This document shows, in pieces, positions 3,499 to 45,800 of a stretch of DNA of 64,000 nt (positions are counted from its first letter, which is position 1; each line of letters starts with the position of its first letter). Made by a program: the position numbers and the translations under genes. Under the pieces are notes generated by a model. That model saw only the letters and a list, made by a program, of their open reading frames with translations, made no database searches and was not told the DNA's origin. The stretch is from Antedon mediterranea (taxonomy: Eukaryota > Echinodermata > Crinoidea > Comatulida > Antedonidae), in contig NC_092675.1 in the NCBI RefSeq assembly GCF_964355755.1, positions 28,668,912 to 28,732,911 on the forward strand, written 5' to 3'.

Positions 3499-3611
3499 CG
3501 GTATAGAAGTCGTCAGTTGTCATTGTGTGTCGCGATTGTATCATCTGGCTTTCTGAAACACCATGACGATGTGTGACGTAGGCCAGAGTTATTCAAGCGA
3601 AGCGAAGCAAC

Positions 3612-3655
3612 TATGACTTTTCTGCGCATGCGCGTGTCATTGATTACGTCAGGGA
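3612..3655. promoter_or_regulatory. NRF1-like and CRE-like sites upstream of the PHD ORF
   Basis: GCGCATGCGCG at about 3620-3634 matches the NRF1 palindrome and TTACGTCA at about 3643-3650 matches a CRE. They sit about 120-150 bp upstream of the PHD start on the minus strand. A similar pair, GCATGCGCA and TTACGTCA, lies near the other end of the element (about 1466-1522). Each internal gene may therefore have its own promoter. Sequence match only. Confidence 0.35.
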
Positions 3656-16119: not shown

Positions 16120-19100
16120 TCATTCTGCATCGTGTCGTTCCTCAACAAACAATGTCTCTTGTGGATATAACCCACATTCTTCAAAAGTCTTAGCACCATC
16201 TAATGAAGTAACCTGGAAGAAAAAAAAAACAAACATCTTAGTTTTGCTTAATTATGATACAGTACATACATAAATACTGTTTTTTTCTTTACATATACAA
16301 AATATCACCAGAATAATATTATCTCATTGGTAAAAATGATCGTTAATGTGTTTTGCTGTTAATGATTTGTTTTGGGTATCGTGTATAGTAAACAATGAAT
16401 ATGCTATGTGCTTTCTAGACGTGGCAAAATGAGGAAAACCACATTTTTTATCTTTAGGCTCTGTCTACACTATCAAACTTTATGTGACAAAAGAAAATGT
16501 GATTTGCCCATATATGGACATTATGACATCATATCACTACCATATTTAAGCATATCACTACCATATTTGGGCACATCACAAACTAGTTTGATAGGTTTAG
16601 GTGTAAGAGGGGAACTTACATCTCTTTTTGGCCATGTAGTTAGTAGTTTATATTCTTCTGTACGATAACCTTTTGAACCAATGAAGTAAAACAAAGTCTC
16701 TAGCGCATGATTGCCATAAAATCTACGGATTAGGGTCTCTCCATTAGGTAGCCTCATTCTGAGCGTGCTCACACCATCTTTAATATCGGCGGGTGGTTCT
16801 TCCGATACTTGTTGTTCTAGGGATAATCTCATTGCCTAAGAAAAAATTGGATTATTTTTTAATTGACAACCAGATAATGCAGACAATATCGAACTCAAAA
16901 GACAATTTATCCTAATGAAATAACGATAAATATATTATAAGGACTGGATGATTAACTCACCATGGAAAGAGATCACATGATATGACTGAAGCAGTCAGCC
17001 AATTAGCAAAACACCAATTACACACATTTTTCAATATTTAAAATATATTTTTATGAATGTCAACTACTTACCTCTTCATTTTGTTCACGTTCTTTTCGTT
17101 CTCTATCCTCTCGTTGTTGTTTCTCTCGTTCTTCTCTTTCTGTCCTTTCTTTTTCTTCTGCCTTTGCTCGATCGGCTATAAGCGATTCTTGATAGGCTGC
17201 ATCTTGTTCTTGTCTAAGTCGTTCAGCTTCGAAACGCTCAGACTGTAAAGTGAAAATTAAAAGAAACTTTGCTTTGCAGACCCTGCTAGTTTTAAAAGAT
17301 TGGAGACAATTTCAAAAGCCGGCGAGCAGTCTTAAAGTAACAAGTAAACTGAAATTGCATTTTCTCAACAAATACTTGTCCAAAAAACTTTCATTTTTAT
17401 ACAAGAGACAAGACTTATAAGTTGTGATTTGTAATTTTAAAACATAATTGTTATGCATGAAATTGCTGACATTTTAAAATTGTACACATGCATGATTATG
17501 TATAACTTACATCTTCTGCCATAGATACAGATCTTTGATGATTGAATACATCAACAGAATGTATCAACGCTGTCATCATTTCATCTAACGATGTGTTTCC
17601 TGAAATATTAAAAATAGTTAATATCAATTTATTTATTTATGCTAATGAGGTGCCTTTTGCCAAACATTGACGCAATATTAATTTTTTTTATTATTATTAT
17701 TACAAATTCTGCGGTTTGTTTTTAAAAGTACCCTCTATAGTTTTGTGTGTTTTTTCGATTTGTATAGTGTCCTCTATAGTTGTGCAATTTTCGATTTGTA
17801 TACTGCCCCCTAAATTTTTATGTTATTCAGTTTTCAGGAACAAAAACATATAAAACAGAACAGTGGTGCAGTACCCTCAGGATTGCCATGAGTGTAAAGC
17901 ACTATCAAATTGGCTCTCCATATAAAAAATGTCGTGTATTTTTTCCAATTTGCATGTTTTGCTTTCCTCATTGCTCCTAATATTTCAAGTTTCCAAGTTA
18001 GGACTTCTGAATTTTTTTTTTTATATAATGAAAATATGAAATATCTGCCCTGCTCCTCACCCTGTGATATTGAAAATACTTCTGCATTTGACCTAGACTT
18101 CATAACAATGAGAATGATAGGGAACTGGTCGTCTTGTATATTGCGTACTGTTGATGCTGCCATGCTGCCAAAGTGTTCTGTACACATATTTAATAACCTG
18201 CACATAATAAAGAACATTACTAATAAATCATTGTAAAAATGTTAAAGTGTAAATCAGCACATATTACAAACACTTTTGATAACAAAGTTTTAAGCTACAG
18301 TAAAGATATCATAAGAACTAGACTTGTATGAAGGCAGCTGTATTAAAGAAATTGGTTAAAAACATTTTTTTTATATTTTATGTGGCCAAGGATTATCAGT
18401 AATAAATTAATCACTGTTCTATCAGATAGGTGGGGATATTTTATGAAGTGACCAGTTCACCGGGGTAACCCCTTACTCGTCTTGAATGATGAACTGGGCT
18501 CTTCAACTGTGTACACTGGACCTACGGTTTATAGTTCGTATCCAAGATATCTAATAACATGCACATGATAAAGAACACAAACCAATAAATAAGGAAGCAG
18601 TTAGCCTCGAACCCATGCCAATATTGTTGGCTCTTTAGGTACGGTAAACGGCGCCCCTGCCTTAACCGCGCTGCCATTTCGACTCGCTCCTCATGTATTA
18701 AAAACAATGTTGAGACGTATAATGAACAATCCTTCATGGTAATACCAAAGGATAGAATATTCAATAATAAACATGCACTTTATAATAAGCACTGACCTTG
18801 CTTTGTTTATGTCCAGCGTTAAATCCCATGCCCAGGTCACAAAATGATGGCTAAGATAAGACACGATGCTTTCTGAACATAACAATTGACTACAAAATAC
18901 ATTAACCTGTACACTACGATCATGATGCAGGTATATTGCTAAAGGTTTCCTCTGTAAAATAGATAAAAAATAAAAGAAATGTCAGCGACCTGTCAACCGA
19001 GCAAGTATACTTCAAGAAAAAAAAATGTGTGAGAAATTGATTTTGAGAATAGGTTGAGAAATCATCTTGTATCATCGAGGCATTTGCTGGCATTGACTAC

Positions 19101-22100
19101 TTTTAAAGATGTATTGTTTCCAAAAAAACATGAAAAAAGAAGATCAATAAAAAAGAATTTGAATAGGCCATTTCGCAATTTTAATCAAGTTAATCACTTC
19201 TGTAGAATAAAAACTACAAAAGATTTCAGTTATAAAAACACAAAATAAACATTAATTAAACCAAAACCAATTTTTTTAATTACAGTTTTTTTCAGGTGCA
19301 TAATTTTTTTCCGATCCAATTTTTTTTTTTTTCAAAGTTAATAACTATTATGTGACATTAAAATGGCATGTTGAACAAAAACATTTAAACAAATTATTTT
19401 TTCAGAGGTGTTTGACAAGAATATATTAACCAAACTTTAACTTTACTCACATCAACTAATTGTGGTTTAAAAGCTTCCTTTGTGGCATCATCTAATGAAC
19501 CTAAAAAGAAGAATGGATGGGTTTGCCCGTAACGTTCCTCAAATTCTTGTGTAAAAAAAGTTAGTGCTTCAGTGGGATCATCAATTCCTGATGGTACTGA
19601 AAATCAAAACAAATAAATAAAATCAACAATAGTCAATAATTATATAACAATAATATATTAACATTAATTTATAAACAATAATCAATAAACATTGTTGTAA
19701 ATCACAATCATCTAAAATTTAACGTAAAGCTTTAGTTTTTATCAAAATGTAATCATTTAATAATGAGAGAGTGATAAATATGAAGAACTCATGCTCATGC
19801 AACCAAACCATTTAAAAAAAATGCAAAAGCTATCATAATATTGATGTGCAGATAAATGTTAATTAGTTTGTCATTTTTGGTGCATCTCTCCATCTCTGCT
19901 ACCAGCAACAAAATAATAATAATAAAAATTACCGTAATAATAACAGAAATTTATATAGCGCAAATTAAAAAATGAAATCAAAGGCGCTGTGTGCAAATAA
20001 AGCAAGGTCAATACAAACTCTGAAAAAGGTGTGTTGATTAACATTTGCCAGAAATCACTTAAATTATAGGACAAATTAGCATTACTTACATAAAGGTTTA
20101 AATTTATGAGATTGGCCATTATTGTCATCACCAAAAAACTGTGCATCATCGTCTAAATCAAGAGTATCTGTTGCATCTTCAAACTCATCACTATCTGTGA
20201 CAACATCTTCATCATCTTCTGATTTCTTTAAAAAAAAAAAGATTATAATATTTACAATTAACAGCTGATTCTATTTTTTAGTCATAAAAAAGCATTAAAA
20301 GCTCTGTCTACACTATCAAAACTTATGGACAACAAAATGCCCATATATGGACATGATGATGTCATATCACTACCATATTTGTCACAGTAGTTTGATAGTG
20401 CAGACAGAGCTTAAAACATTACAATAAAACAACTTTAAAGCTAGTACACAATGCAAGAATGCGACGTATCCATGCAAAGTGTCGTAAGAACATGACACAT
20501 CTTACCAGTAGGGACCGGACACCGTTTTCTGCTTTGCATATGTTGCAAGAGGGGGGTGGGAAATTGATAGTATTTTCTTAAGCTCTGTCTACACTATCAA
20601 ACTTTATGTGATGCGCCCATATATGGACATGGTAATGTCATATCATATAAGCATATCGCTACCATATTTGGGCACATCACTTTTTTGTAAAACTAGTTTG
20701 ATAGTGTAGACAAAGTTTTACGTTTTGTTTTGTATTATTTATTTATACTGGGAGACCGCTTCAGTCAAAGACTGGTGTTCCAGAGAGCCCAGATTATGAT
20801 CAGTGGCTGTGATGTACTAGTACACCAGGGTAACCCACTACTTGTCACGAAAGATGTATTTTACACTGGACCTACGGTTTATAGATATTATATAATTATA
20901 ATACTTACATGTGGTTTTGTATGGTTTTCCTGTTTTCGACAAAATGTTAACCTATGATTTGGAAAGTTAAAATTGCAGTCAGCTAATGTCAACTGAAAAA
21001 AAAAGAAAATAAAAATAAATTTTATATAGTTTGAATTGAATAAAAATGTACTTGGTAAAAGTAACCCTGGACACGCATTCCTTTCTGAGTATGCCACAAA
21101 TTATATTTTCTGAATAAATCATTTTTATTGGTTATCCGCACTTGGCGGATAACCCCTTGTTATTGTCAGGATCTTTTTTTTTTTTTTTTTTTTCTATGTT
21201 CTTCTTTCTTTCCCAGAATTTTGTTGCTAGTGTATCTCTAAATCTTCTCAACATAACATTGTATAACTTTATCAGAAGATTGACCTCTATCTGAAGATGT
21301 CGTAATAAGGTTTTCGGTCTCGTCCGAGTTGCGCAGCATAAGTTACGCGCGATTTTATGAATTTCAATGATTGATCATAGATTAAAAACCAAAAGTCATT
21401 TTGTATTGACACTTGGTGAAAATTTAAGTCATATGAAGGGAAACTTTCTATGGATTAAAAATGGCATGTTTCACAGAAAGTTACGCGCGCACGCTCGTTT
21501 AAAATTTCAAAATGCGAAAAATCAACTTCTAATCAACTTTCTACACGTTTCATGTCATTTTGAGCGTTTCAAAAATTCCCACGGCCGCGCATTTTTTTTA
21601 CGCGTGCGTGCGCATGTAGCGCAAAAAACATCTATTTTTGCCTGATTTTTGTTTTTTCAGCCTTTTTTAGTAATTTTACCAACTTTCAAACAATTTTCAC
21701 TTAAAATCACGTCATACGAGCACATAGAATTGGACAATTTGCGTGCGTTTTTTATGAAAAAGTTAAAAAATTTGTGAAAATTATGCCTTTCTTAAAACAG
21801 TCATAGATTGTAAACTACGTGGTGAACTTTTTTAAAATTACATATTCTGGAAGTTGATGAGTTGTAGATATCGAATCATGCATCGATATGGCTAACCGGA
21901 CATTGTGACATCATCGTATGGCCACTCGAATATGAAATATAGGATTTTTGTCTCTTTCGTCATAGCTCGTCACATTGAATAGAGCGCATCTCCTTTATTC
22001 GTATTCCAATTCCCTCAATTTTTTTATTATTGTCTAGGTCAATCGATTATCTTTTGCATGATTCACCATTTTTAAAATTGTGATGACGTCATCATGTTCA

Positions 22101-25100
22101 AAAGCGTTAATAACTTTGGTCACTTATTTTCACCTATTCTGCACTGTATGTAGTACGTATACAGGATATAGTGTATACTGTATATACTTAGACGGGACAC
22201 AAAATAGAGAGCACACTGAAATTGTTTCAATGGCATAATCGTTTTTCTTTGCGCAATATTCTAACGTATGATGTGCCGTGGCCTTTGCGCTGCGGATAAC
22301 CTAACTCGTCCGAAGTGACGAGTTCAAATCTAGTTTGGATTTCATTTTGTTTTTTTTTGTTTTTTCGTTCTACTGAAACTTGAAAGTTTATCAATTTGAT
22401 CTCTAGTGTGTACAGTTAAGGACTGGTGCCGTTCCACTGTACCACGCTGAGAAAGAGTTATTAATCAATCGCATTTGAACAATGCCATGGAAGCCCCAGT
22501 GGTCTAATGGTTAGGACATCTGCATATCAAGCAGAAGGTTCCGGGTTCGAATCTCGGTTGGGGCAGCTTTTCTCATTCTCACACATTTCCTTATATTTAT
22601 CATTGCTAAATGATCAACTAATATTCAGTATATCAACAGACGGTTTAAAATCTGTTCTATAATAATATATATTTACAAATCGATGAATAAAGTTTGTCAG
22701 TCAGTGAGTGTTTCAATTTTCTGACAATGTAATGTGTATAAAAAGTCACTAAAATACCGTGTCATCTCCATTGGCTTGTGGCCAATCTAACCAATTTTGA
22801 TGTCGAACTGCTACAGATGTTAATGTGTGAACATCTATTTTAACTTCTCTTATAGTCTTGTTAGCTGGATAAGAAACTTGCCGTTCTTCTCCTGTGTCTT
22901 TGTCTACAATCACTAATTCAAATCTCTGTAGAACTTCAATTTGTTCCCTGAAAGCAAAATTGTATCTCTCAGTAAGCATGAAAAAGTGTATAAATAATAA
23001 AGTTATACATTGTTTACCCGGAGAATAAACATTAATAGAGTAGGTCTGCGGTACACCACACATTTCTATAACTTACACAGTACACGGTAGATTTCGTAGT
23101 ATAAAATCATGGGCCTATAAAAATGTATAGGTCTATGATAAAATTATAAATCTCTTATCTAATTTGTAAACTTGTTACCTGTCTCTACAGCAAAACATTA
23201 CATAAAAATAAACAACATTATGGACAGTGTATCACAGAGAATAGTAATAAATATACTTTCTTCAAAACAATTTTAAAATATTTTTAAATTCTGAAAAGAA
23301 ATACAAATTTTAATTTTATTATTGAAGAATTATAAAGTAAATTCATATTTACTGTACGTGATTTGATTCCTCTTTAGCCAATAAAAAGTACATGGCAACA
23401 ACTTATTTTAAATTTATGACATATGGAAAAGCTATCAGATTACTATCCAATAAGCATAAAGAAAGGTGACATAATATTCTATTTATCCAATAAAGAGATT
23501 CAAAATTCTATGACATAATCATAAGTTATAAAACAACCAATCAAACTGCTTACAATTGTATGACATAATGGGACAATTATAAATCAACAAATCACTGAGC
23601 AATCGATATATGCAAATTTCTATACAGTATTCGTTTGTTGCAAATTTATTTATCATAAAAACTACAGGTCCATAAAACAACAAAACAATATCAAAATATC
23701 TCAATTTATCTCTATAATCAAAAGCCTCAAATAGAGATAACAAACACACCACAAACCCAGTTAAAGTTATAGCCAATCAGCAATCAAATGAACCCAACAA
23801 CTAAAGGTGTATAGCCAATCAAATGCATGCATGATTACATCATTATTATTTAAATAGAATCAAACAATCCAACTTGGCAGTTACAGTTAAATTAATAACA
23901 ATACATTCTTAATTGATCCAAGCACTCAAAATGTAATCTTTTTTTGTAAATACCAAACCTGGTTTAGATTTAAATCTTTTGTTAATGTGTTTTTGATAAT
24001 CTCATAAAGGAATATAATAGTTACTGCAGAAAAATGCAACCAGCATTATTTGTGTCAGATATATATCTGTACCTATGATGTCATACACTATTTATAGACA
24101 ACACTCAACTAACACACCCACATAAACCTGCCATTGATTAAGCTTTCAGTAAAATAATATAAAGCATTACAGAAAATAATTGTTGTAGTTACAAAGTTAA
24201 TGAAAAAGCCTACACTAGATTTGTGATGTACAGTAACACAATAGAGTGGGTATAATGCACCTATCAGTATCACATAGAATGCCTAGGTTTTATTTAATAA
24301 AGTGCATTATGAACTAGAGAATAAAAGCTATCTAGCCATTATTTGGTGACCTTGGAATATTAAGTTAGTTTTACTATTTTTAGTTGGGTAACAAAACATT
24401 ATTATGTTCACCCTCACAAAACATTGGATTTTTAGAATCTTAGGATTCCTATTTTAAAGCAATACTTTGCTATGGAATAAAATACTTAAATATTTGGTAT
24501 AGATAATTAAAAAGTTAAATTTCTGAATACATTACAGTAATAAACTTACTCGTCATTTTGGTTTTCTTCTATAGAGTCAGTTTCTGGTATATCTGGTGTT
24601 AGCAAGTATAATTTGTTATACAGTGGTAAGTGAAGACTTGATAAAAGATCCTATTAAAAATAAAAATATGTATTATAAATGACATTGACAGGTCATAGGT
24701 CAATTGATTATACCTTGTTTAGTGCTATAGGATAATGATGTTTTGTTATCATTCCTTTTGTCATTTATATTTGTCTATTATTATTAACCAGAAGATGAAT
24801 AGATAAAGTTATATGAGTGTGTCACCAAATACTAGGTCAAGGAATACAAAAGGACAATAGAACCTTTGTTTTACGTTCCCTGAATTTACGTACGCTTAAT
24901 AAAATGACCGCTCATTTTTATTAATTTATTACATAAATAGTGTATTATTATACAGCCATGACTATTTATACATTCCCTTTACAGAGCAGCGACTGTTTTT
25001 ATTGATTAAAAATACAAGAACATTTATTTTTTATTTATAACATTTTATTTAAACATCACACAGCCGGCATACAATTTCCTAGTTAGGCTTCACAACTAGG

Positions 25101-28100
25101 CTTCACATCTAGCTAGGCCTAGCCTGGCCTATATTAGTCTAGTCCTAGCTAGTAAACACTGCATGCTTAAAAAGAGTTGGCGACCATGGCAGCCTTTTTA
25201 GCTACAATTTAAGTATTTGGGGTCAAATTATGGTCAACCTGGATTTTATAAATCCCATATTTTACGTACGTATTTCGGTACGTATAATGAAGGTTTTACT
25301 GTAGATTTGAGCGGCATTTACAAAACTGAGTAAAATTTTGATTAGAATTGTTTGTGTTGAAGAGAATAATATAAGTGTTTTATTCTTCAAGTACATACAG
25401 TCAACATTTCCATTTCCTGAACATAAATCATAAAAAATTCAAAATCTAACTTCATCAGTTCCTTTTCCCATAAACCACATGATATTGATAATTGTTTACT
25501 GAGAAGTTTCCCTCAAATTACTGCAACAAACTCCCATAGGAAAAACCATTTTTAAGAAGTACAGTTAAAAAAAAGATGTTTTTGGTTTGGTAGAATTTCC
25601 ATAATTAAATTACAAAATGAGGAAGTCAGTATATTTCCAACTTTGTAGCAGAATTAAGTGAAGAAATGTTACAGTGTAATATAAACATTAAAACAGTATT
25701 AGACAATATACTCACGTTATCTTTTGCTATAATTCTACCCGCTCCCCAGCCTCGTACATCCATCAGTAATATTGGTATATTTAGTTCTTCATTCAACAGT
25801 TTTTTAATTGTTGCTGTAATGACAAAAACAAACATTTAGTTATTTTCAACAAGATTGTGGTTGTTGACAAATCAAATACTGTTATGAATGTTATTGTTAT
25901 TAATATCAACTTCTTAATATTATTTTTTTTTGCTAGTATCATATTTATTTATTTGTTCTCATATTTTTTATTTTCTTTTTCAATTGTATGTGGAAGGGGA
26001 AAAAGCAGTTAGCTTTCCCAATTTATATTGTAACAATTATATATTATTATGTATCTTCTTTAGCAAAATTAAATGTGAATAAATGAATGAATGAAAATAG
26101 TAAAACACTGAATTCTCTTTATGTATGTGTTTTTTTCTCTTTATGTGAAGTTACACTTGTTTTATTTTATCTGAATGAAAGTGATATAATATTAAGTTCA
26201 TTATTAGTATTCAACAGTTATTTAACTGCTGCTGAAATAACAGAAAGTTATTTTGAACAACTTCAGGAGTGGTTGACAGAATCTTGACAGATCAAATAGA
26301 TTAAATGTATTTAATATGTGTACTGTCTCTTTGGAGTTACCCTTGTTTTATTTTAGCTGATTGTGGTATTTGTTTAGTTATTTAACTGTTGCTATAATAA
26401 TAAAAATGTTTTTAACAACTGTGGTTATCTTTTAAACAAATATAGTTTATATTATAAAATATTTCAATCACTTTTATTTTATTAGAGTTCTTAATTTTAA
26501 AAATGTTAATTTTTAAAAGCAAACTACAGGTTGTCAAAAGCATTATACCTTGAACACAAAGTACAATGGAATACAGTTATTAATAAGCAGAATTGAGTTG
26601 ACCTTCACTACTAACAAACTGTAGATAACATACAAGAAGCATAATGCATTGTAATGCAATATCCTTCCTGTCTGTGTGTGATATATAAAAGCCTTGTTTT
26701 GTTTTTACTAACAACAGCAGTAACAAATTCTGAATTTTCTGAATGAATAACTATAAATCAACGTTCTGCAAACCATAGTGGGGCTGAGGTGAGGACTATT
26801 TTGGTGGTTTGGCCACGGCTAGGTACTGGATTAAACCCGGATTTTAGGCCGCATAATATAAAAGTTATGCATTTATATAACTAACTCTGGGATAAAATCC
26901 ACCTTCAAATCTGAAGTAATGTAAATTATGCCATAATTTATTATCTAAGGTTTTAAATAAGTACTGGTATTTGGTATTTTAATATTATTATTTAATTTAT
27001 TGGGTTTTTATTTATTGTTTCGCTGTAAGAAAACAATAACAAATATAAAAATGAAAAAGAAATATACGTTTTGAACTCAAGCAATCACAATCCTAAAAGT
27101 TCACAACAAAAACAGTGCCATCCGAGTATAATAAAATAATATCATATATTTACATACAGTACTGTACAGACACAAGAAATTAACCCCGTTTTCATTAGAA
27201 TTCCATTTTAAAATTTGAAGCAATCAAAGAAAAATTATTATTTGATTTATTTATGCTAAGAAATATTTTGAAAACTAATAAAAAGCCTTGTACACTTACA
27301 ATACTACAGTACTGGTCAGAGTACTTTCAACATTCCCACTCGTTTTTTCCTGCTGTTTTTCTGGAGTGTTTGTGGACCCATCGCTGAATTGTTGATTGAC
27401 ATTTACTATTTCTAAAATAAATTACTAGTTTTTCACGCTAATAACGTGATACACGAACGACAAGACTTCAGGATAAACTGCTAGCCGAAAAGCCGTTTAT
27501 GCATGGATTGTGACCTTAATGTATTACTCGAGGATATCGACGCTCGGTCAATACGAGAGTAATGTTGAAAGTCCTCTGACCAGTACTGTATATAATATTT
27601 GATAAGATTTACTTTCAAAGAGTTGTGTAGTAGCAATAGTTTTAAACACCATAAGATGTGTGAATAACTTACAAACTGCCATGGAGTCTTCAACTCTTAA
27701 ATGAATTCTTCTGTCTCTGTACTCCACATCAAATTGAAGTCGTCTGATCCTAGTAGAGGGCGGTGAATCAAAAGCTGCTGATGTACATGCGCCGTTGTTG
27801 GGTGGCGAGAAACTTGTTGTAGGAACCCTAAAATAATATTTACATTTAGTCTTTTTAAAACCTATTTATTCATTTAAACTTTTCAAAACACTGAACTGAA
27901 TTTCCATAAAATTAACTTTCCAAAAGCTGTACAAACCCTGACAAATTTATTTTACAAAACTTACTTGACTACTGATGGAGTCAGGTCTATCATTTCAGTG
28001 TCCGGGACATCTTGACCATGACCGTCGGGCACCAGTACACTATTAACGGCTTGTTGTAGGTTCCAGTCCGACTGTTCTAAGTGTGCTAAAGATTCTTCAA

Positions 28101-29306
28101 AATCGCTTATTCCAGTACAAGCCTAGATATTATATAACAACACAAATACTGAAATGTGCAAGCAATCATGTAATTAATACCAGGGTTGGCATTTATCAAT
28201 ATTTGCTTATATTTTTGCTTAAGCTGAAATATTTAAGAAGTGCTTAAGCAATAACTTAAGCAATATTTATCAAACCATCTTAGCAGAAAAATTGTCTTAG
28301 GTAAATTTTACTATGCTCAGCAACCCTTGGCAGCCGATACAGTTTTCTAAAATTAACTGCTGGTTAGTAAAATTGGTCGTACATGTCCCGAAATATAGTT
28401 TGGTTTTGAGTTTCCAAAGATTTTGGTACTGTATTGGGACAGTATTACTATTTTTATATTGTATTATTATTAAAAATTATAAATAGTAATACAGTCAACT
28501 CTCCCAATACCGGACACCTTTGGGCCGGCCAAATAAGTCTGGTTTTCCGGAAAGTCTGGTATTCGGAATGTGTTTTTAATGGTAAATATAAATTTGGGAC
28601 CTTTTGGTCCTCAAAAAAAGTCTGGTATTGGGAGAGTTTCTGGTTTTCAGAGAGTCCGGTATTGGGAGAGTTGACTGTATAATAATAATTTGTTATTCTG
28701 CAAAATGAGTATGGTACGCTGATGAAATGAATGACATTTTCTAGGTTGATATTATCACTATTCTTTCAAAACCTTGTATCTCTATTTTTCTGACATTGTT
28801 GGTTGGGTTATTATTGTACCCTACCCCTAGGCCTATAGGGCCTAGCTAGGTGTTATTTTTTTATTTTTAGTAGGGTATTTACTATTATTAGTACCGTTAG
28901 TAGTTTAGCCTAGGCCTAACTAGTTAGGCCAAGCTAGTTACCTTAGTACTGAACACAATTGTATTTGACACATCCTAAATATAGTGAATTTATATACAGT
29001 TTATACCACCACAAGACCACCAACTAGGCCTAGGCCTAGTCTAGTCTAGCCCCCACGGATAAATCGGTAAGGGCAGTTCAGGACGTTATGTCTGTTTTTG
29101 TTTGTCATCATGATACCAGTCAATTTACCTGGCAATATATTTACATATACACCAACAAAACTTTATAATAAAACGTTAAACGATTATTCATATGTTACTT
29201 TATTGATCTATCTGCTTTATATTTATGTATAAATGGATAATTCCCAATTTACACTGCTTCTTTTTACCTGAAAATCAGCTAGAATTTCATCCCTGTTCGT
29301 CGCCAT
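16120..29306 (-). CDS. FAF1: FAS-associated factor 1 (UBA-UAS-UBX p97 adaptor), complete
   Basis: Coding exons, 5' to 3' on the minus strand: 29306-29268, 28122-27965, 27827-27673, 25813-25716, 24650-24550, 22947-22758, 20992-20909, 20225-20090, 19596-19451, 18951-18797, 18197-18061, 17599-17511, 17242-17072, 16835-16620, 16212-16120. They sum to 1968 nt (655 aa; human FAF1 is 650). Start MATNRDEILADFQ matches the family N-terminus. Domain order: UBA (1-50), ubiquitin-like 1 (FDVEYRDRRIHLRVED, about 85-180), ubiquitin-like 2 (VRHQNWLDWPQ, about 185-275), acidic linker (SDEFEDATDT), UAS thioredoxin-like domain (YGQTHPFFFLGS; IVSYLSHHFVTWAWDLT; DDQFPIILIV, 321-466), charged coiled coil (497-553), UBX (570-652). 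FAF1 recruits p97/VCP and ubiquitylated clients. Oddity: the UBX p97-binding loop reads W-P-K rather than F-P-R. Exon boundaries were read by eye. Confidence 0.95.
16456..16600. mobile_element. CTCTGTCTACACTATCAAAC hairpin MITE (copy 1)
   Basis: Starts CTCTGTCTACACTATCAAAC and ends AAACTAGTTTGATAG. It sits in FAF1 intron 14, only about 20 nt from the splice donor of exon 14. The right terminus is eroded. Confidence 0.8.
18430..18540. repeat. Dispersed repeat ending TACACTGGACCTACGGTTTA
   Basis: Shares GGTAACCC(C)(A/T)TACT(C/T)GTC and ACACTGGACCTACGGTTTAT with 20800-20884; both lie in FAF1 introns. Family unknown. Confidence 0.55.
18545..18592 (-). pseudogene. Decayed copy of the FAF1 exon 11 acceptor region
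   Basis: CTAATAACATGCACATGATAAAGAACA resembles the true acceptor region of exon 11 at 18190-18230 (TTAATAACCTGCACATAATA...). The AG acceptor is destroyed here (ATGCAC to CATGTG). Short, so chance cannot be ruled out. Confidence 0.3.
19938..19998 (-). mobile_element. SINE remnant
   Basis: AATTTATATAGCGCAAATT and AAAGGCGCTGTGTGC match parts of the SINE body and tail seen at 37.6-37.9 kb. Heavily truncated. Confidence 0.35.
20299..20416. mobile_element. CTCTGTCTACACTATCAAAC hairpin MITE (copy 2)
   Basis: Inverted ends AAGCTCTGTCTACACTATCA and the complement GATAGTGCAGACAGAGCTT; internal deletion leaves about 118 bp. FAF1 intron. Confidence 0.85.
20580..20718. mobile_element. CTCTGTCTACACTATCAAAC hairpin MITE (copy 3)
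   Basis: Starts AAGCTCTGTCTACACTATCA, carries CCCATATATGGACATG and ends AGTTTGATAGTGTAGACAAA. FAF1 intron 7, about 170 bp from copy 2. Confidence 0.85.
20800..20884. repeat. Second copy of the TACACTGGACCTACGGTTTA repeat
   Basis: Partner of 18430-18540 (shared CAGGGTAACCC and ACACTGGACCTACGGTTTAT). Confidence 0.55.
21129..22305. mobile_element. 1.2 kb repeat element with CGGATAACC ends
   Basis: The left end is a hairpin, GGTTATCCGCACTTGGCGGATAACCC as two arms, followed by CTTGTTATTGTCAGGATC and a T-run (21172-21194). The right end reads TTTGCGCTGCGGATAACCT. The interior has many CpG-rich words (GTTACGCGCG). It fills FAF1 intron 6 with no coding capacity. Class not assigned. Confidence 0.5.
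22493..22565 (+). tRNA. tRNA gene or tRNA-like gene, anticodon AUC
   Basis: A full cloverleaf can be drawn: acceptor GCCCCAG with TTGGGGC, D arm within TGGTCTAATGGTTAGGAC (A box TGGTCTAATGG), anticodon stem TCTGC/GCAGA around the loop ATATCAA, and T arm with B box GGTTCGAATCT. The discriminator is A and a T4 terminator follows two bases later. By standard numbering the anticodon is ATC (reads GAU, Asp), yet tRNA-Asp normally carries GUC and the body is closer to Glu/Gln types. It is antisense to FAF1, in an intron. It may be a functional tRNA, a mis-anticodon pseudogene or a SINE founder. Confidence 0.7.
24853..25304. mobile_element. Pogo-like TIR element in a FAF1 intron
   Basis: The left end, ACAATAGAACCTTTGTTTTACG..., is complementary to the right end, whose complement reads ACAGTAAAACCTTCATTATACG...; both lead into TTTACGTACG. 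Length about 450 bp, TA-rich flanks. The AGAACC/AAAACC terminus resembles the CAGT(A/C)GAACC family elsewhere in the window. It also contains a TAGGCCTAGCC cluster. Non-coding. Confidence 0.5.
26150..26430 (-). pseudogene. Two decayed copies of the FAF1 exon 4 acceptor region
   Basis: 26213-26310 (ATTCAACAGTTATTTAACTG, then GGTTGACAGA...CAAATAG) and 26378-26430 (GTTATTTAACTGTTGCTATA) resemble the true exon 4 5' border at 25790-25880 (ATTCAACAGTTTTTTAATTG, then GTTGACAAATCAAATA). Frames are not maintained. I infer local tandem duplication followed by decay. Confidence 0.4.
28491..28678. mobile_element. Pogo-like MITE with perfect TIRs
   Basis: CAGTCAACTCTCCCAATACC...and its exact complement end at 28678, each flanked by TA. 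About 188 bp, with internal CCGGACACCTTTGGGCCGG and related words. TA duplication plus CAG-type ends fit pogo/Tigger MITEs. FAF1 intron 1. Confidence 0.8.
28690..29260. other. FAF1 intron 1 proximal part with TAGGCCTA clusters
   Basis: Contains several palindromic GGCCTA-rich stretches at about 28820-28855, 28910-28935 and 29020-29050. No exon seen. Confidence 0.5.
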
Positions 29307-29326
29307 TTTGTGATATGCGCATGCGT
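29296..29326 (-). promoter_or_regulatory. YY1-like and NRF1-like sites at the FAF1 start
   Basis: On the minus strand the start codon lies in ACAAAATGGCGACG, a YY1-type AAAATGGCG motif, and a few bases upstream ATACGCATGCGCATAT resembles an NRF1 palindrome. This pair is typical of housekeeping promoters with very short 5' UTRs. Sequence match only. Confidence 0.4.
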
Positions 29327-30844
29327 ATACAGAATTATGACAGCAGTTATTAAATCCATTGTGTTTTTTGTGTGGGTACAAAATGTGATGACGTAACCTT
29401 CTAAAAAATTATATTCGTCATAATCTGGCCCTCTGTTGTTTATTTCATTTTGGCCTGTTCAGACTTGAAGATAATGAACTGCTATTTTCGGAAGTACAGT
29501 TTAGAACTTAACAATAGCAAGAAATCAAACATATATAAATGGAACTAACGTCGTTCTGGTATCTGATTCAGTGTAGTTTTGAGCTGTCAACACAAAACAT
29601 TATTTTTGTCTGCTGTCAATAGTACATTTGAATTTAGTGGATTGAATTTATTCAGAGCAGCCTGATTTCTAGTCTGTACCCTATTACTATTATAAGCCTA
29701 GCCTATACTATTTTATATCTCAATTTACGCAGATTATGGAATTAGAATGAGATCGCTTCAAATCGGCTACCGTGAGGTAAGTCTTATAATATTGTTAAAT
29801 CTAGACAATTGTTGTTAATATACAATCATAAATAAATCAATAAATAACATGGGCTATGGGCCAAAGCCCGCTGTCATAATACTTGTAGGCCTACTGGTGG
29901 TATGATACTTCCGCGTGATTTTAATTACGGGAAAATACCACCACATGAAACAAGTCTGCGCTTGCGTGATCCTTCCTTCATTCGCGAACGCACGTACGTA
30001 CCTCCTCCTTTACGTTGCTCGTGTCTTCTGAATAACGTGAATTCGTTCAGCAATTGATAAAATCTTACGGCGTCTGACGATAATTATGGCAGTTGATGAC
30101 AGATCCAGGCTGTGTAGGGAGGGGGTGGTGGGTACGAGGGTCAAGAATACGAGAGGAGGACACGCCAAGTCTTTTTTTCCCCAATGTTTACTTCAAAACA
30201 ATTGCGGCACATTTAGAAAGACCGCGCACACAGGAAAAACATAGGCCTAATCTAATAATAATGGAAATTTGTAAGGCGCAAGCATCCGTCTAAAAAAAAG
30301 ACGCCCACTGCGCTAACTTTTTAATCATATTTGTTTAGTCTAATGCTTACGTAAAACGGTAAACGGAAAAATTGACCAGATATGATGCCTCCACTGAGCA
30401 TAGCTCACAGCGCCCGACCGGAACTGATGTTTTACTCCAATTGCCTCGTCCTTCGGATGGAATGTGAAGCCATCGGTCACGTGTACACATAGTGCACGTT
30501 AAAGAACTTGGTTGGCCTACACTATTCGAAATAAAAACAAGGCCATATACATGGCTGAAGTCGCGTGCTCAAGTTAGTGTTTACCGACCAACCGACCGAC
30601 CGAAATCGGGCTGTAGAGTCGCGTTGCACGCGACTAAAAAATGCAAGGGATCGTCTCCAGTGTGGTAGGCGCTGCACTGCTGGCTGTCATGGGTCCGTGG
30701 AGGGCCAGTTAAGTTTCCAGTTAAGCTTGAGGAGTCAGACCAAAAATAAATACATTTTATTTCTTTATTTTTTATTGGAGGCTTTTGATGCTCCTTGTTG
30801 TTAAGGAAACGCTACTTTACTGAGTTCGGATGATTGGCAGCACC
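29307..30844. promoter_or_regulatory. Shared divergent interval between FAF1 and the CDKN2-like gene
   Basis: A 1.5 kb head-to-head interval. It contains a splice-donor-like CCGTGAGGTAAGT at about 29771-29783, possibly ending a non-coding first exon of the plus-strand gene, and a short hairpin-ended element at 30556-30636. No coding exon seen. Confidence 0.5.
30556..30636. mobile_element. Short relative of the AGTCGCGTG hairpin element
   Basis: Starts AGTCGCGTGCTCAAG, carries ACCGACCAACCGACCGACCG, and ends GTAGAGTCGCGTTGCACGCG ACT. It is an 80-bp version of the element at 5026-5848. Confidence 0.6.
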
Positions 30845-32388
30845 ATGGAAAATCCACAGGAAAACCCCAATCCATTAACAATTGCTGTGGTTTCTGGAGA
30901 TTTAAATGAAGTAAGATCTCTATTGCAAGCGGGATTTCCAGTGAATTCAAAGAATAAGTACCGACACACGGCTTTACAGGTAGTTTGTATTGTAGAATTA
31001 CGCCGTCATAACAATTTCAAGAAACTTGCGTTTAATGTATTTTATGGTTATTGGAGAAATTCTTCAAGTCAAACCAATGCTTAGCCCCTCTCTCTCAGCG
31101 CTTCAGATTATTAATTTTATCTGTAAATTTTGGATCAAATAGGCTACATACCATAAACGTTGTACGAGTCCCAGTTATTTCTGCGACCAGAAGAAGTCCG
31201 GCGGCCAACATGCGCGCGCCCTTTCTGTGTGTTTTTAAATGAGGATAAAGGTCTGTACTAATTCAATCAATCTAACATTTATTTTTTAACATTCACCTAG
31301 GCCGTGTCGATTTCTAATTTTAAAATGGTGCAACTTCTACTTGAACACGGAGCAAATCCGAACCTTCGTGAACCAGTTACGGGATGCATTCCGCTTCACG
31401 ATGCCGCGAGATCAGGTGCTACGACTACATTGGAATTGCTGCTGGAATACGGAGCAGATGCGAACAAACAAGACGAAGCCGGAAGAGATACTCCTGCACA
31501 CATAGCAGCAAGGAAAGGACATTTAGAGGTGAGCTAAATTAGCCGATTATTATCATCACTTGATCTATATATGAAAATCAAGATTGACAAAAACGATAGG
31601 GTAAATAAATCGAACCGGTAACAGTACAAATCATGTTGTTTATGCACCACCTGCAAACAATATTATTTGAGCAGACTGGTGGTGAACCATCAGTGTGCAC
31701 ACTTTGAATGTTGGTGTGGGTGGGTGGGTTAATCGCGATTGGGCCCCACAGATCTTTCCCATCAGGGAATTTGTTCTCATTTGGAGAGAGACATTTTTGC
31801 GGCTACAAAGTAGCTGTCGGTCGATATGCATAGTCGTTCTTCCGGCCTATCAAGATCTGCTCTCTCCCGATTTTTTGGTAAAGACGTAGCAAATCTAAGC
31901 AATCCGCGTGAAAGCTTGAAAGTTGACCATAGCAACTGTGGCGAATTCACTGATTAAAGTCGCAACGCAAGGGTGTTGACCAATGACAAGCGAGAGTTCA
32001 AATAATCCATCGCTAGTGATTGGTCTCTCACTTACGTTGCGTTACGTCTTGCGTTGCGTCTCTAGTGGGAACCAAGCATTATAAGCTGACGCTTTAGATT
32101 GCGCGAACAAGTGGAAAATCGGCTTTAGGTTTGCAGCTGTCTTTACCATGGTTGTCAAGTGCGCTTCAACAGTGTCTGACTGCCAATTTGGCTATAAAAT
32201 TATTCATCTATTTTCAGGCATTCAAGATGTTATGTCACCGAACTGATATGACCATCAGAAACCATAATGGTCAAACACCATTGTCAATTGCTGACCAACA
32301 CAACGAGTTAAGAAACTGGATAAAAGAAAACACTGATCTCGGACATGTGTCATTGAAATTAAACAAAATAGACCTAAATATGACGTAA
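30845..32388 (+). CDS. INK4-type cyclin-dependent kinase inhibitor (ankyrin repeats)
   Basis: Three exons, 30845-30979, 31301-31528 and 32218-32388, all phase 0, giving 177 aa (human p18/CDKN2C is 168). I chose the start with Kozak context CACCATGG; an in-frame ATG lies at 30830. Five ankyrin repeats are visible: NPLTIAVVSGDLNEVRSLLQ, the irregular second repeat VSISNFKMVQLLLEHGANPN that marks the INK4 family, IPLHDAARSGATTTLELLLE, PAHIAARKGHLEAFKML and a weaker fifth. The first intron falls right after T-A-L-Q, the position where vertebrate INK4 genes are split. INK4 proteins bind CDK4/6 and block cyclin D kinase. FAF1 lies head-to-head, as for human CDKN2C. Poly(A) signal AATAAA at 32561. 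Orthology to a single vertebrate INK4 cannot be set by eye. Confidence 0.85.
31957..32080. mobile_element. GTTCCCACTAG hairpin MITE (copy A, partial)
   Basis: CGCAACGCAAGG...GTTGACCAATGACAAGCGA...GATTGGTC...CTCTAGTGGGAACCAAGC. The left arm is shortened. It lies in intron 2 of the CDKN2-like gene. Confidence 0.65.
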
Positions 32389-36849: not shown

Positions 36850-39800
36850 CTATGAAATGGCACAAGAACCGGCTTCTGTCTCTGTTGGCAGATCTTCTCT
36901 TGTTGGTGTCTTCACTGCCTCATCTTCAGACTCACTGAGGTTAACACTCTGACGCTTGATTTCCATAGGAGATAGTGAGGTTTCTGACGACGTAGATGCT
37001 CTTGTGGATGCTGGAGTGTTAGGAGGGCTTGGTTGCTGTTCAATTATCATTGACAGAGCTTGAGCCTGGGGCTGAATGGCTTCAAGGACTGGCTTATAGG
37101 AAGGGCTGTCAACAACAAAAAAAGAATATTGTTCTATTATAAAAAACCATACTAATTACTTTATCATCATATTATTTATTTCACCTTAAAAAACTGAATG
37201 CAAAGTAAACATTTCTATTTCTGACAGAACACAGCTCCGGTAATAAGGTACTCCTAATAGTATGGTTTCCTATCTGAAAGGGTTGTGCGGTAATAATAAT
37301 ATTACAAGAAATATTCACTGCAACGCAAGACCGGCATTCCATGATCATAATTATATTTCTTCGTCTTTCTGTGTGAGAGCATGACATTTTGCGATTAATT
37401 GCAATGTTGTGCAGTCAAGTGTATCAATTAAACAGTATATCATACAGGATTTTATATTGTTTCATCAGACCCTTTTATACATGCAGGTTATATTCTGGTG
37501 AAGACAGTTTAATGTGACACGATTCCTGTATGTATACAGCTGGTACACTAGTGAGAAAGGGCTTAAGTTTTAAACATTCAACAATTATCATCAGCCTAAC
37601 CTGATTAAAATAATAATAATATCCTGGATTTATATAGCGCCTAATATTGTTAAACCTCTAAGCGCTGATTGAACATTATTACCCCAGTCATTTTTTAGAT
37701 CAACCACGTATGGAAACATATTCCCATAATGCAGCTAGTAATCAGCGCAAAGTTATGTCTTGATCTAACCGGGTACCCATTTATACACCTGGGTGGAGAG
37801 AGGCAAACGAAAGTAAAGTATCTTGCCTAAGGATACAATTAATTTGGCAGAGTTGGATTCGAACAGTGATCTCACGATCAGTAGTCCAACGTCCAACACA
37901 CTGCGCCACACACCCTTAAATTAAAATGAAGCACTTTCTGCAAATAATTGTTCACATATTTACCATTCAGTAGTAGCCCAGAGTTCTAGAAAAGAGAAGC
38001 CCTCCCTCATCCTGCCAAGAACATCCAGGGGAGAGTCAAGAAGACTTGCAGAGTTGATAACTTGTGAGACAGCTGATAGGTCACGTAGGATGATACCAAT
38101 AACAAATGCCCATTCCAAACAGTTGGCATCCAAGAAAATACTAAATAGATGTCTGCAATATAGTGGAGAAGAATAAACAAAAATACAGTATAATAAAAAT
38201 GTTAGCCCTACAAGAGAAAAAAAGTGTCATCGTAAATTGTCATCGTTAATTATGTGACAAAATGAAACCTAAGAAAGGATTGTAAAACACCAAAGCATTA
38301 ACCCAACTTTCCACTAGGAGAATTTGTTAGCGCAAATCGAAAGCATCAGCTTTTACGCATGCTTAGAGAGGTACTTGGAAGATGGAAACATGAATACGCA
38401 CGCTTATTAACTGATGCTTTTGATTAGCGAGAACAAATTGTCTAGTGGAAAATCGGCTTTAAGAATGTCCGGTTTAATAGCTTACCTGAGTTCCTTAAGT
38501 GATTGTGGTGGTCCAAGAGTGACCATTTCAAGTGATAACTTCTCAATCTCCTGAAGATTATGGTTGCTACTCCACATGGTGTCATCAAGGTTGTCGCAAT
38601 CACCAAAGGTCGACGCACTCTCTTCACCAGTTCCAAGTGTACTTGTGTCATCTGACCCTACAAACAAACATTGTATTATTTCCATATTTATATCAGTCAT
38701 ATTTCTATTGAGCCTCTAAAGGCCAATTTACAGAGACAAGCAGTAATGGTAATAAAAATATAGAATGTCTACAGTATGTTATGATCATTTACACACAATG
38801 CTGAGCGGACGGGCGGTTTCCGCTCAGGATAGATACAGAAACCAGATGTGGGACATGTGATATATATGTGTATATACAATCAACTCTCCTAATACCAAAC
38901 TCTCTGAAAACCAGAAACTTCTCAAAATAACAGACTTTTCTTGCGCAGTGCAAAAAGTTGTCAAAAATTTGTTTTGCCAAAGAGTATATTAAAAAACTTA
39001 AAATATAATGGTGTTACCTCGATAAGACATATGCTGCAGAATAGCTTCCTCTGTCTTTGCATCACTAATAACGCTGTCCGACAGACTTTGAGGGCGTGTC
39101 AGTTTACTTTTGGTTATTCCACTTGATGATGGGGAGGGAATGCTAGATTTGGCCAGGGGTGAAGTATCATTTGATAATCCGTTTGTGATTAACGACGAAC
39201 TTTGGGAAGATGACCTAGAAAAAGACCTTGATATAGAACCTGCAATAAAGATTTTTTTAAATACAATACAGTACTGCAGTTATAAATATACCTTTTTTTT
39301 TTTTTTAAGTCATGTGCATCATTAGACAGAATTGAACCTCTTGAGGTCAATCTGTTTAATGACATATGTGTCATTTTTTCTGAAGAAGTTGTCCGAGCAG
39401 GACAGCAAAACTGTCAAGCAGGTTAGTTTCATTAATTTTTTTTTTTTCGAAAAGAATTACTATTTCGTGAATATCTAAAACAAGAGGTTTAATCACATAC
39501 AATATGAATTCTACAATTTAAACCAATAAAGGTATTATGTAGCATTAAAAAAAATAAAACTAAGCATTCCCCGAGTACCAAGGGAAGTGTTCTACTGTAT
39601 AAGAAAACAAAAAAACATTTTCCCCCAAGATTTGTGTTTAAATTGGGGTTAGGACGGGTGCAATTCAACATGGTTGATCCGATAGGTAAGATATTTAAAT
39701 TTAACTTACCAGATTTAAATGAGTTTGAAACAGGAGATACTGTGAAAGATGAAGTTGGCATAGGCCATTTGAAATCACGATGAAGACATTGCAAGGCATG

Positions 39801-42800
39801 GACCATATCATCAATCTTAGCGGCTCGCATCCTTTCAAGAAACAAGACCATGTTAATTTAAATAAATGCAGGTGCAAGATATACCAGTCATAAAATAAAT
39901 TCTTATTTGGTGGTTGGTTCACATAGTAAGTCATGGTATTGATTCAGAACCAAAAAGGTCTAATATTGTTAACACGACAAATAAAATATTTTAACATTCT
40001 GTAATTTTAACAAACTTATGAATCACATTTGCATGCCTGAAAATATATTCTAAAAAACAATCATCATGACATTTAAAAAAAAAACCAATTTTTTTGGAAA
40101 TGAAAAAAAAAAAACATTTTTCAAACATGAACCAGGTTTATGGACAGGCTGATTTAAATATCTTCTACAAAACAGTCATAACATTTTTCAAATATAAACC
40201 AGGTGTATGGACAGGCTACATTTTCATTCACTTTTAATTCAGGCAAATTAAAAGCATCGGTAAAAAAACATCAAAATATACTTAGTTTGTTACCTTTCTT
40301 TGGCGAGCCATTTCCCTAACTTAAAATCCAGGTAAGCACAAAACATTCCCAGGTCTCTTATTCGACATCCTGTAAGTAGTTTGCGAGCATGTCTGCATAG
40401 AATTAGATCTATGTAGTAATCCTCTGCTGAACTTTCATTACTGTTTAGTCTTTTTGAGACACTGGATCTAAACAAATAATTATAAATGGTCAATAACATA
40501 ATAATACATTACAATTGTTTGTAACTACTGTGGAGTAGCTTTGTATCAGGGTGTTGAGTAATTGGTCAGATGTTTTGCCTTACTCTGACGTAATTTGTAC
40601 TTTAGTATGTTGAGCAAGTAATTCTCAGGTTGGAATACATAATTATACATAACTTGTATTAAGGTCTGTCTACACTATCAAACTAGTTTGACAAAAAAAA
40701 GTGCGATGTGCCCAAATATGGTAGTGAGATGACATCATCATGTCCATATATATATTATATATATATTATGTTGCCATGAGAAAAACCAATTTTAAATCTT
40801 TCGTTGACGAACTATTTGACAATAAAGTTATCTTGTATCTTGTATGGGCACATCGCATCACAATATACATTTTTTGTCATATAAAGTTTGATCCTGTAGA
40901 CAAGCTTTAAACTTGATGCATTGGCTATTGAAATCAATAAATCCTGATTTGAAAGAAGAGACCTTCCCTTCAAATGAATTCTAATGATCGAGTATAGTCA
41001 AACTATTTAAATTTATTATACAAGTATGATACTAACTTTTTATCAGCTGCAGCATCTGGTGTTTTATCCAATGTTTTCGGTCCACCACCACTAACGCTCC
41101 GCGTCCTAGGTAACGTCTTGTGGAATTTAAAACCAGGCATAGCTGGATCTTTTGGCGTTAATGGAGGATTGGTAAGTGGGTATACATTTGGGTTAGATAA
41201 TGGAAGTGGAGATCGTAGCTCATCTTCTTCATCCCCAGGTCCAATTGTTCGTAAGAAACGTTGTAAGTCACGACAAAGTCCCCATTCTCTTTGTTCTAAT
41301 GAAACATCAAATAACTGTGTTGCATACTACATAAGGAAAAAATACATAAAGGAGTCATGTTAAAATTGTATGTGAAAAATGTTTTATTTACCATAAAATA
41401 TAATAACCTTTGTTATCAATTTTTTTTCTTTTGATAAAAAAGAATGTATGTAATAATTTTAAGCGTTCAATCTTAATTGCATATATATATATCATTAAAA
41501 CAACTTACTTGTCGACTTATTTTGATTGTTTCTAAATTCTGTAAAATGATGAGGTAGGAAGCAGCTGTCTGCAACAACCCTGAAGTAAGGCACTCCTGTT
41601 CAATATAAAAAAGTTAATAACAGGAAAATTGTGTGTAAATAAAATAGATTCAAGAATGTTCTTCTACTTTGCAAATAGACAATCCAGCTATAAAGTCTAA
41701 AAATCATTCTATGAATATGTTTTGAGCATTACTAAAGCTCTGTTTACACTATCAAACTTTATGTGACCAAAAAATGTGGTGTGCCCATATATTTTTGTCA
41801 AAGTAGTTTGTTAGTGTAGACAGAACTTAACATCGGAAAAGGATAATGATGATCTAAATTATAGTGATAATAATACTGTACCTGGAACAAATCCCTGGGA
41901 TTTCCCACAGTGTTAAATAAATACGGCCATAAAGCAATCTCTGTCTTTCTTGAACAATGTACAACAGTCTGTAGATATTCAGGAAATTCCTGTATAAAGG
42001 CCACGACCCTTGGTAACATAGCATCTGAGGAAATGAATATACATTTTATATATACTGTACACTGCATTTCTCGTTAACATTTTGCACCATGTAATGGTCA
42101 ATTATTATAAATACAGCTTAACGTACCTGGTATAGGTTCCGATGCTGTAGCCTCTTCTTCCAGCACCTCATGAAGCATAAGTTCCAATACATGTGGGAAG
42201 TATGGTAACGATGTACAACTCCTGGCGATATCAAGTGCATGGATTCCAAGGCTAATTTAACACAAACCAAAATGAAAATCATTAAAGCGAAATTTTATAT
42301 CTATTCCTATAATAATAATAAATATACGTTATTAATGTTTTATAAATACAATACAAGACCACATTTTGAAACAAACAAAAATGTACTTACTTTCTTCTAA
42401 GTAATTGCCGTAGTATGAAGTGAAGATAAATCTGAGTCTAAATATAAAAAAATATAATCATTATTAACAATAACAAAAATAAATATTTATACCTAAACCA
42501 CAATAAGTAAATCTGAAAAAAGTTTGTACATATTTCAGAATTACAACATAATGAAACTGGTATACAAAACTACTGCTATATATAACCCTGTAAATTTCCA
42601 TGCTCGAATGTAATCCCACCCCTAATTTAGGCTAAATCCATTAGACAGCATACTTAACATACTGCCAATCCATTATTAATGAATTTAGAGTATACAGTAA
42701 TCCCAACCACTCATTTGCATCACATTTTGTATCATCATAAATATAACTTATCAACAACAAACTCTAAAGCTCTGTCTACACTATCAAACTTTAAGTGACA

Positions 42801-45800
42801 AAAAATGTGATGTGCCCATATAACATGATAATGTCATATAACTATTATATTTGGGAATATCAATACCATATTAGGGCCATCCCACTTTGTTTATCAAACT
42901 AGTTTGTTAGTGTAGACAGAGCTACCACATACTGTGCGTTCTAATGTAGAGAATGGTATACTTGATGGCTGGAAGGACTTCAAGTGATTGCTAAGCGTGT
43001 CAAAGTTCAAGGTGTCATTAGCTGCTCCCAGCACAACAGCATCTTCAAAAAGAATGGCTAGCAACAAAATAATATTAAATGTTATTGAATTATTAAACTG
43101 AAAACTTTTAAAGTTGGAAATAGTTTCAGCACAAGTATTGTACAAGTAAAATTGAATAGATGTTGAATAAAGGAAACATTTAAATATTATGATAATAATA
43201 ATTATCTTTCATCCCATTAGGACATAGGGCCTACTCTTACTGAAAGATACTCTAGATTTATTTAAGTGCATACAAGCCAGATCTATACAATGGACTCCCA
43301 ATTTTAAGTCCTTTTTTTATGACTGTCTTAACTGCTCGGCCATTCTCTACCATATTACAGAATAATGCACTGTATTATAAAATAAATGTATTGCATTAAG
43401 CTTACCAAGAGGATATATTTTCAAATGGAATGAGAGCATGATGCGTTTAGAAAGAAAGCCATGGCGTTTCTCATCACCCTCAGGATACAATGGAAGCCAC
43501 ACCTGATGATGACAAAAGAAATATCATAATTAAATCAATAACATAGTGGAGCTGTAGCTTGGTGCTTGCCTTCTAATCCCAAGATCCAGGGTTCAATCCT
43601 GACTAAGTGCCAGGGTTGTAAACTGAGACGACTCTTTCAAATCCACTCCCTAAGTCTCAGACTTAGATTATAAACACGATTAATTATAAAATAGTTTATC
43701 CATCCTGTAATTTGAGAGTTGAGAGTTTGTGCGTGTTAGATGCGTATGAAATACAAAAAAACATATTTCAAGGAGAGTGTTACACACTCACTTATTTTGA
43801 TGATTACACTCTTTGTATGTTTTTTATACTATATTAAAAAAATACCTATTACATATTTTTATGTGACAAAAAAATGTGATATGCCCATATATGGACATGA
43901 TAATGCCATATCACTACCATATTTTGGAATATCACTACCATATTAGGGCACATAATTAGCTCAATTAATCAACGATATGTACCTTCATTCCTGTCGCACC
44001 ACATCCAAGCCAAAGAGATTCTGTCAAATGAGGCTTTTTATGGCAAACGCCTGAAACAGCCCACAAGTTCTCCACATTAGAGGCAAGTACAATTGGAGCA
44101 CAAAATGGCATCTGAAAAAAGTACATAAAAATGATTAAAGTCAAAGCATAGTGAACAATATGTCAATATACAGTCGAACCCTCTTAAGGGGACACCTTCA
44201 GTTTTAGTGGAGTTCTTTGGATACATTTTTGGGTGATGTATGTTTTTCAACATATTTACCTCGTTCCGTTTCTTAACTGTTGAGTCGCTGGTAATCACTT
44301 TACCACGATCTCTATGCAGCATTAGCACACGGCCAGCAACATTGATAATTAAACTTTCTGCTTCTCTCGCATGATTATTACTTTTTTCTACAAAAAAAGA
44401 TTTTAAATTCATTTACGACTTTTTAAAATATTTCATTATAGAAAAACAAACAGCTGAAATTTCAGGCAATGAAGGACGTTTTAGGTGGTTAAGCTCTGTC
44501 TACACTATCAAACTTTATGTGTCAAAAAATGTGATGATGTTATATCACTACCATATTTGGGCATATGTAGTTTGATAGTGTAGACATACCTTTAGTTTCT
44601 TGCTTGGTTACGGTAAGACTAATTAAATTATTCACCAATGAAGTTTGCTTTTGTTTATTAAATCCTCTCATGTGTTTTTTTATGATTATTTTTATTCATT
44701 GCATTATTTTTAAAGGACGAAATAAATGAAACAATCACTTCAGAAGATATTAATGATAAGAAAAAACCATGTACTGTGTAATCTATTCAATTACATGTCT
44801 TCATAACTTTTTCCTATTTCTTAAAGGTTTACTTACGTATTTCTGACCTGAGAGAAGTTAATGTTATACAAGTAAGAGACGTTGGATGAGGAACAAAGTT
44901 GGCCAATGACAGGTCTTGTATACGAGTGATAGACGCAGTAGGATCTAAAAATGACATTCAAATTAACTTGTCAGTAATGGACATTTATGCTTAAGTCAAG
45001 ACAGTGCTTAAATGAAAAACTCAAGCTTGTTTATCAGACCAGTTCTTTTTATCTTAAGGAATGGACCTTGTCCTTTTCATCCAAGAGATAAGTTTTAAAA
45101 ATAGGTTATTTTGAAAATTGACTAAAAGCTCTTTCTACACCATCAAACTTTGTGTGACACAATGATGTCATATTACTAACATAATTGGGCACATCACACT
45201 TTTTTGATAGTGTAGACAAAGATTTACGGCCTCTACAATTAGAAGGGAAATAGGTATTATATATCACAACATTCAAATAAATAGTGCCCTAATGGGTTCC
45301 AAAACATTTCTTATAATTCTAATGAAAATATTTTTTTAAATGTGTATCTGTTTCATACTTGGAGTATTGAAAAATAAATACCGTCCCGGGTATAATTCCA
45401 CTTTGGGTTTAATCCCACCCCCTACCTTATGTCTTATTTCACAAACAGGCATATCTCCGGGTATAATCCCAGTATTGACATGACCTAGATGTAGGCCTCT
45501 CTCTAACCAGTTCAGATGAGCTTTTACAAGAAATGCTTACCAATAATTTTTTTCCTTAACCAGGGTTTCCCCGGGTATAGTTCCACCCCCCCACCCCCAA
45601 AGTCGGCTCAATTTTGTGTTGTAGGTAGGTGTGATTATACTAACGGTATTTTTAAGAGATAGTTGAGAGCGAAATGCGTAAAACCTCTTACTTGGTTGTG
45701 TGCCTTGCCGGTCAATTTGGTACAATGATATATGGTAATCAGCACAGAAGATTACTAGTAAGTCTTTAAATACATTTAACAGCAATACTTGAGATGGTAC

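Follow-up and report, generated by a model that had tools for sequence, protein, structure and literature searches.

The window, by which we mean the whole stretch of 64,000 bp that was analysed, spans positions 28668912-28732911 of contig NC_092675.1 (hereafter C6), which accounts for 31.7 Mb of the 354 Mb Antedon mediterranea assembly; a search for mitochondrial COX1 found none. It contains a FAF1 gene and, reading away from it on the opposite strand, a gene for an ankyrin-repeat protein of the INK4 type. The features on which our argument draws are the following (positions are those of the window):

16135 to 29306, minus strand: FAF1 gene, coding span, exons all in order, with UBA, UBL, UBL, UAS and UBX regions
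29268 to 29306, minus strand: FAF1 coding exon 1 (MATNRDEILADFQ), with the ATG at 29306 and a GT donor at its left end, near 29268
29307 to 30829, no strand: gap of 1523 bp between the FAF1 and INK4 start codons, candidate shared promoter
29317 to 29325, no strand: NRF1-type motif GCGCATGCG, upstream of FAF1 and 11 bp from its ATG
29389 to 29396, plus strand: CRE/ATF-type motif TGACGTAA, located within the gap some 80 bp away from the FAF1 ATG
29743 to 29776, plus strand: possible end of a 5' untranslated INK4 exon, from motif only (strong donor GAG/GTAAGT at 29777)
30536 to 30640, no strand: dispersed repeat inside the gap, with similar copies elsewhere
30830 to 30979, plus strand: first coding exon of INK4, covering ankyrin repeat 1 and the start of repeat 2, ending TALQ in phase 0
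31301 to 31528, plus strand: INK4 coding exon 2, the rest of repeat 2 through repeat 4, with the HDAAR motif (genome search and alignment)
32218 to 32388, plus strand: INK4 coding exon 3, running from the end of repeat 4 through repeat 5 to the C-terminus and stop (genome search)
42894 to 53347, minus strand: RIC1, which follows INK4 on the right (verified exons; probably continues to about 36850)
56771 to 57064, plus strand: exon of a Tctex-1 (DYNLT) family gene

FAF1 is a complete and specifically identified gene. With tblastn, its exons fall strictly in order on the minus strand from 28143, which matches human residue 9, to 16135, which matches residue 649; not all of the human FAF1, RIC1 and CDK6 queries were checked letter by letter. 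FAF1 entries lead the PDB matches for the joined exons (E = 7e-110) with other UBX proteins far below, and the domain order typical of FAF1, a UBA domain, two ubiquitin-like domains, UAS and UBX, was found from the exon order and, for UBX, from Pfam. The initial annotation, which had FAF1 reading leftward and an INK4-type gene diverging rightward from it across a gap of about 1.5 kb, was thus accurate in identity, direction and distance. The interval it gave, 29268-32388, encloses the INK4 gene entirely but takes in only exon 1 of FAF1, which extends 13 kb further to the left.

The INK4-type gene was modelled with three exons that join at consensus splice sites without breaking the reading frame, encoding a protein of 182 aa if translation starts at the first ATG and of 177 if it starts at the second, and exon 1 corresponds to a genome-search match at 28699756-28699911 of C6. 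Its first coding intron is in phase 0 and directly follows the Gln of the second repeat (TALQ/AVS), which is the same codon at which we take the first intron of the human INK4 genes to lie (Q50 of p16, Q43 of p18).

Is the ankyrin protein an INK4, or one of the many other proteins built of such repeats? Ankyrin repeats are common, and the phmmer totals were in fact higher for long ankyrin proteins. Those totals, however, are sums over many partial repeat matches in long ankyrins and DARPins, and because a whole-protein ranking of this kind is misleading we dropped it as a guide and turned to the scores of single stretches, to a profile and to a tree. By single stretch, p18 is matched over residues 9-149 in one full-length stretch at ~95 bits, whereas no single stretch of the other proteins shown scores above ~60 bits. 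In direct alignment CDKN2C (p18INK4c), which has five ankyrin repeats, is the closest human INK4, with 63 of 158 aligned residues identical (40%), end to end and with no gap in repeat 2; identity is 39% with p15 and 38% with p16 and p19, and the score of the window protein against p18 (259) exceeds that of p16 against p18 (231). A profile for which only mammalian INK4s were used, not the window protein, gave that protein 114 bits, whereas the best other ankyrin stretch tested in the genome reached 70 and human GABPB1 56. In the tree, which contained few sequences and had long outgroup branches, the protein joins the vertebrate INK4s at 97/93, the vertebrate INK4s being joined among themselves at 98/92, and it is placed as sister to all of them, outside all four human paralogues and not with CDKN2C alone. 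The human p16, p18 and p19 sequences were checked to be those of PDB entries; for p15, mouse p18 and the outgroup ankyrins, not every letter was checked.

Finer features of the protein agree with this placement. Pfam Ank models cover most of it and its alignment matches the five-repeat p18; its second repeat has 25 residues, one fewer than is canonical, and aligns ungapped with p18 and p16. The HDAAR motif, whose Asp and Arg face CDK6 in the p16, p18 and p19 complexes, is kept at the matching place, although the spacing before it is one residue longer than in CDKN2C, like that of p15/p16. The FLDTL that follows HDAAR in INK4s, a common rather than a defining feature, is absent from the window protein, which reads ATTTL, a point against the placement; a solved p18 variant with Phe82 changed to Gln (PDB 1mx4) retains the fold. 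Judged by its sequence, then, the protein is a true INK4, as had first been proposed, with the profile, the tree, the short second repeat and the intron position all in agreement, and the gene groups inside the INK4 family in the tree and not outside it.

It is also, as far as the search could detect, the only INK4 in the genome, since the ankyrin matches drop from 165 bits for the window gene to 46 bits for the next. Contig C2 carries a CDK4/6 gene whose best exons share about 50-80% identity with CDK6 and in which an Arg occupies the position of CDK6 Arg31. Since the window INK4 belongs to the family and retains the contact residues, we infer that it would bind this CDK4/6 and hold cells in G1.

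The two sides of the pair differ in character. To the left of FAF1, elements with long ORFs (reverse-transcriptase elements and one of helicase type; window 3748-5184 among the places) lie crowded, unlike the right side, which is gene-dense. Also in the window are an intact ORF for a 7TM receptor at 10192-11289 (7tm_1, E 1e-30), by eye of the relaxin/LGR receptor type; a zf-AD-like domain at 2137-2607, below the Pfam cut-off, of a kind best known from insects; and two long tandem arrays, one at 46570-47823 with VNKIE repeats on the plus strand and NLVDIYF on the minus strand, the other at 57901-59073 with another protein repeat, of 14 letters. ARAGORN called a tRNA-Asp (anticodon atc) at 22493-22565, by eye within a dispersed repeat, which probably represents an element derived from a tRNA rather than a functional tRNA gene.

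Rightward of INK4 the order is RIC1, the Tctex-1 gene, a PDZ exon, a relative of ZYG11 and a KDM4 demethylase, all of them within about 125 kb counted from where the window's right half begins (RIC1, the ZYG11 relative and KDM4 in window 36850-53347 and C6 28.73-28.76 Mb). We take the human counterparts to be dispersed over three chromosome arms, with ZYG11A/B at 1p32, RIC1 at 9p24, KDM4A at 1p34, KDM4C at 9p24 and KDM4B at 19p13, and we infer that RIC1, the ZYG11 relative and KDM4 form a compact remnant of a linkage group that existed before duplication. Does the rest of the chromosome carry the same signal? Seven marker families had been picked beforehand for having human members on 1p/9p/19p, and six of them were found on C6: NFI (a single match), TTC39 (which also has a locus on C1, with a higher score), the DM genes (three of four), the L27 domain of PATJ/MPDZ type (a single L27_2 match), ELAVL and the EH domain of EPS15 type, the last assigned by eye amid EH matches on other contigs. 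Given that C6 makes up 8.9% of the genome, the probability of this by chance is 3.3e-6, or 1.0e-4 without EPS15, values made somewhat generous by families that have several members per genome. The seventh marker, the JAK-type FERM domain, counts against the linkage: its sole match is not on C6 but at C8:1978371-1978550. The human JAK genes are, we assume, on 1p, 9p and 19p; a subsequent translocation in one of the lineages may account for the match on C8, or it may be a different gene. The single matches for NFI, L27_2 and INK4 fit a genome that did not go through the vertebrate duplications.

Taken together, the position of the window gene in the tree and its linkage to markers of 1p/9p/19p lead us to consider it very likely that the locus is the single INK4 of a non-vertebrate animal, standing in a divergent pair with FAF1 that predates the vertebrate whole-genome duplications. 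The pair itself was compared in two lineages, the Antedon mediterranea genome and human. The suggestion in the initial annotation that the pair is older than vertebrates is therefore supported, both by the INK4 tree and by the shared linkage group. The accessible literature yielded no description of FAF1-INK4 synteny in animals other than vertebrates, although a metazoan microsynteny survey beyond that literature may list the pair. The INK4 inhibitors have been described as conserved across vertebrates (PMC12513967, PMC4192657).

A question arising from so old an arrangement is “What would have kept the two genes together?” The pair may have stayed joined through regulatory DNA common to both starts, or may simply never have been broken, and the former leads to a refinement, compatible with an ancestral pair, in which a bidirectional promoter couples a CDK inhibitor with an apoptosis/protein-quality gene. 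Motifs of NRF1, YY1 and CRE type lie at most 90 bp from the FAF1 start, CpG is at or above expectation across part of the gap, and the donor at 29777 would put the start of INK4 transcription closer to FAF1. Only 0.02 matches to the NRF1-type motif are expected in the window and two places were found. Against the refinement, every motif crowds the FAF1 side, the YY1-type motif, which overlaps the FAF1 ATG, is no rarer in the window than would be expected by chance, and the gap contains repeat sequence. A shared promoter is possible but unproven, and we hold the refinement only tentatively. Somewhat more doubtful still is the larger proposition that a two-way promoter has held FAF1 and INK4 together for more than 500 million years, with a cell-cycle brake and a death/protein-quality factor co-regulated since before the vertebrates. 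The second NRF1-type place, the perfect palindrome GCGCATGCGC at 3624-3633, lies just upstream of a PHD-finger exon (3313-3519, minus strand) and is probably the promoter of that gene.

Two explanations would do away with common ancestry of the pair altogether. FAF1 and an INK4 might have been joined separately in the lineage of the window and in that of vertebrates, which a comparison limited to two lineages leaves some room for; however, the wider linkage group is common to both, the orientation is identical and no mechanism favours two separate joinings, so that we regard an independent origin as highly improbable. Fractionally less credible again is the idea that convergence made a generic ankyrin-repeat protein look like INK4 and that its gene stands beside FAF1 by chance. 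Against this, the profile, tree, short repeat and intron position are concordant, and a chance adjacency in the same orientation would have odds of about 1 in several thousand, even given the right chromosome.

How, then, does the ancestral pair that we favour relate to the human loci? We take human FAF1 and CDKN2C to lie head-to-head at 1p32.3, an arrangement like that of the window in that members of the same two gene families diverge from one another and the first coding intron of the INK4 falls at the matching codon. The window differs from it in having its INK4 as the sole copy, in a second coding intron and in having as neighbour RIC1, a gene of human 9p24. The CDKN2A/CDKN2B locus at 9p21 shares INK4 genes with the window, and relatives of 9p markers are on the window's chromosome (human 9p presumably also has DMRTA1, ELAVL2, MPDZ, NFIB, KDM4C and RIC1), but that locus is without a FAF1 neighbour, its INK4s have four repeats, and the ARF overlap is unique to 9p21. 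In fish, reptiles and human, elavl4-dmrta2-faf1 has been described as a conserved block (PMC7689362), a comparison that shares faf1 with ours but covers vertebrates alone and has INK4 outside its subject.

On the most economical history, one chromosome with the FAF1-INK4 pair, present before vertebrates, would have been duplicated twice, yielding INK4 loci on 1p32 (CDKN2C), 9p21 (CDKN2A/B) and 19p13 (CDKN2D), with FAF1 surviving solely beside CDKN2C on 1p. All four human INK4 genes probably descend from a locus of the window type, because the vertebrate INK4s as a whole form the sister group of the window gene and because relatives of 1p, 9p and 19p genes are gathered on C6. The earlier view that CDKN2C keeps the original INK4 locus consequently needs qualification: CDKN2C did retain the FAF1 neighbour, but the copies on 9p and 19p descend from the same locus. 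The p18/p19 form of INK4 has been thought the older (PMC9876281), and the five repeats of the window INK4 support this view, five being on this evidence the likely original state.

An invertebrate with a single INK4 in the human arrangement, on a chromosome whose marker families are found on human 1p, 9p and 19p, provides an outgroup with which to root the INK4 family, makes the origin of the CDKN2A/B, CDKN2C and CDKN2D loci by genome duplication testable, and identifies the ancestral neighbour of a major tumour-suppressor family. In human, the joint loss of CDKN2C and FAF1 in myeloma attests to their proximity (PMC3996928, PMC5386330); if the two genes do share a promoter, that joint loss would strike an ancient regulatory unit.
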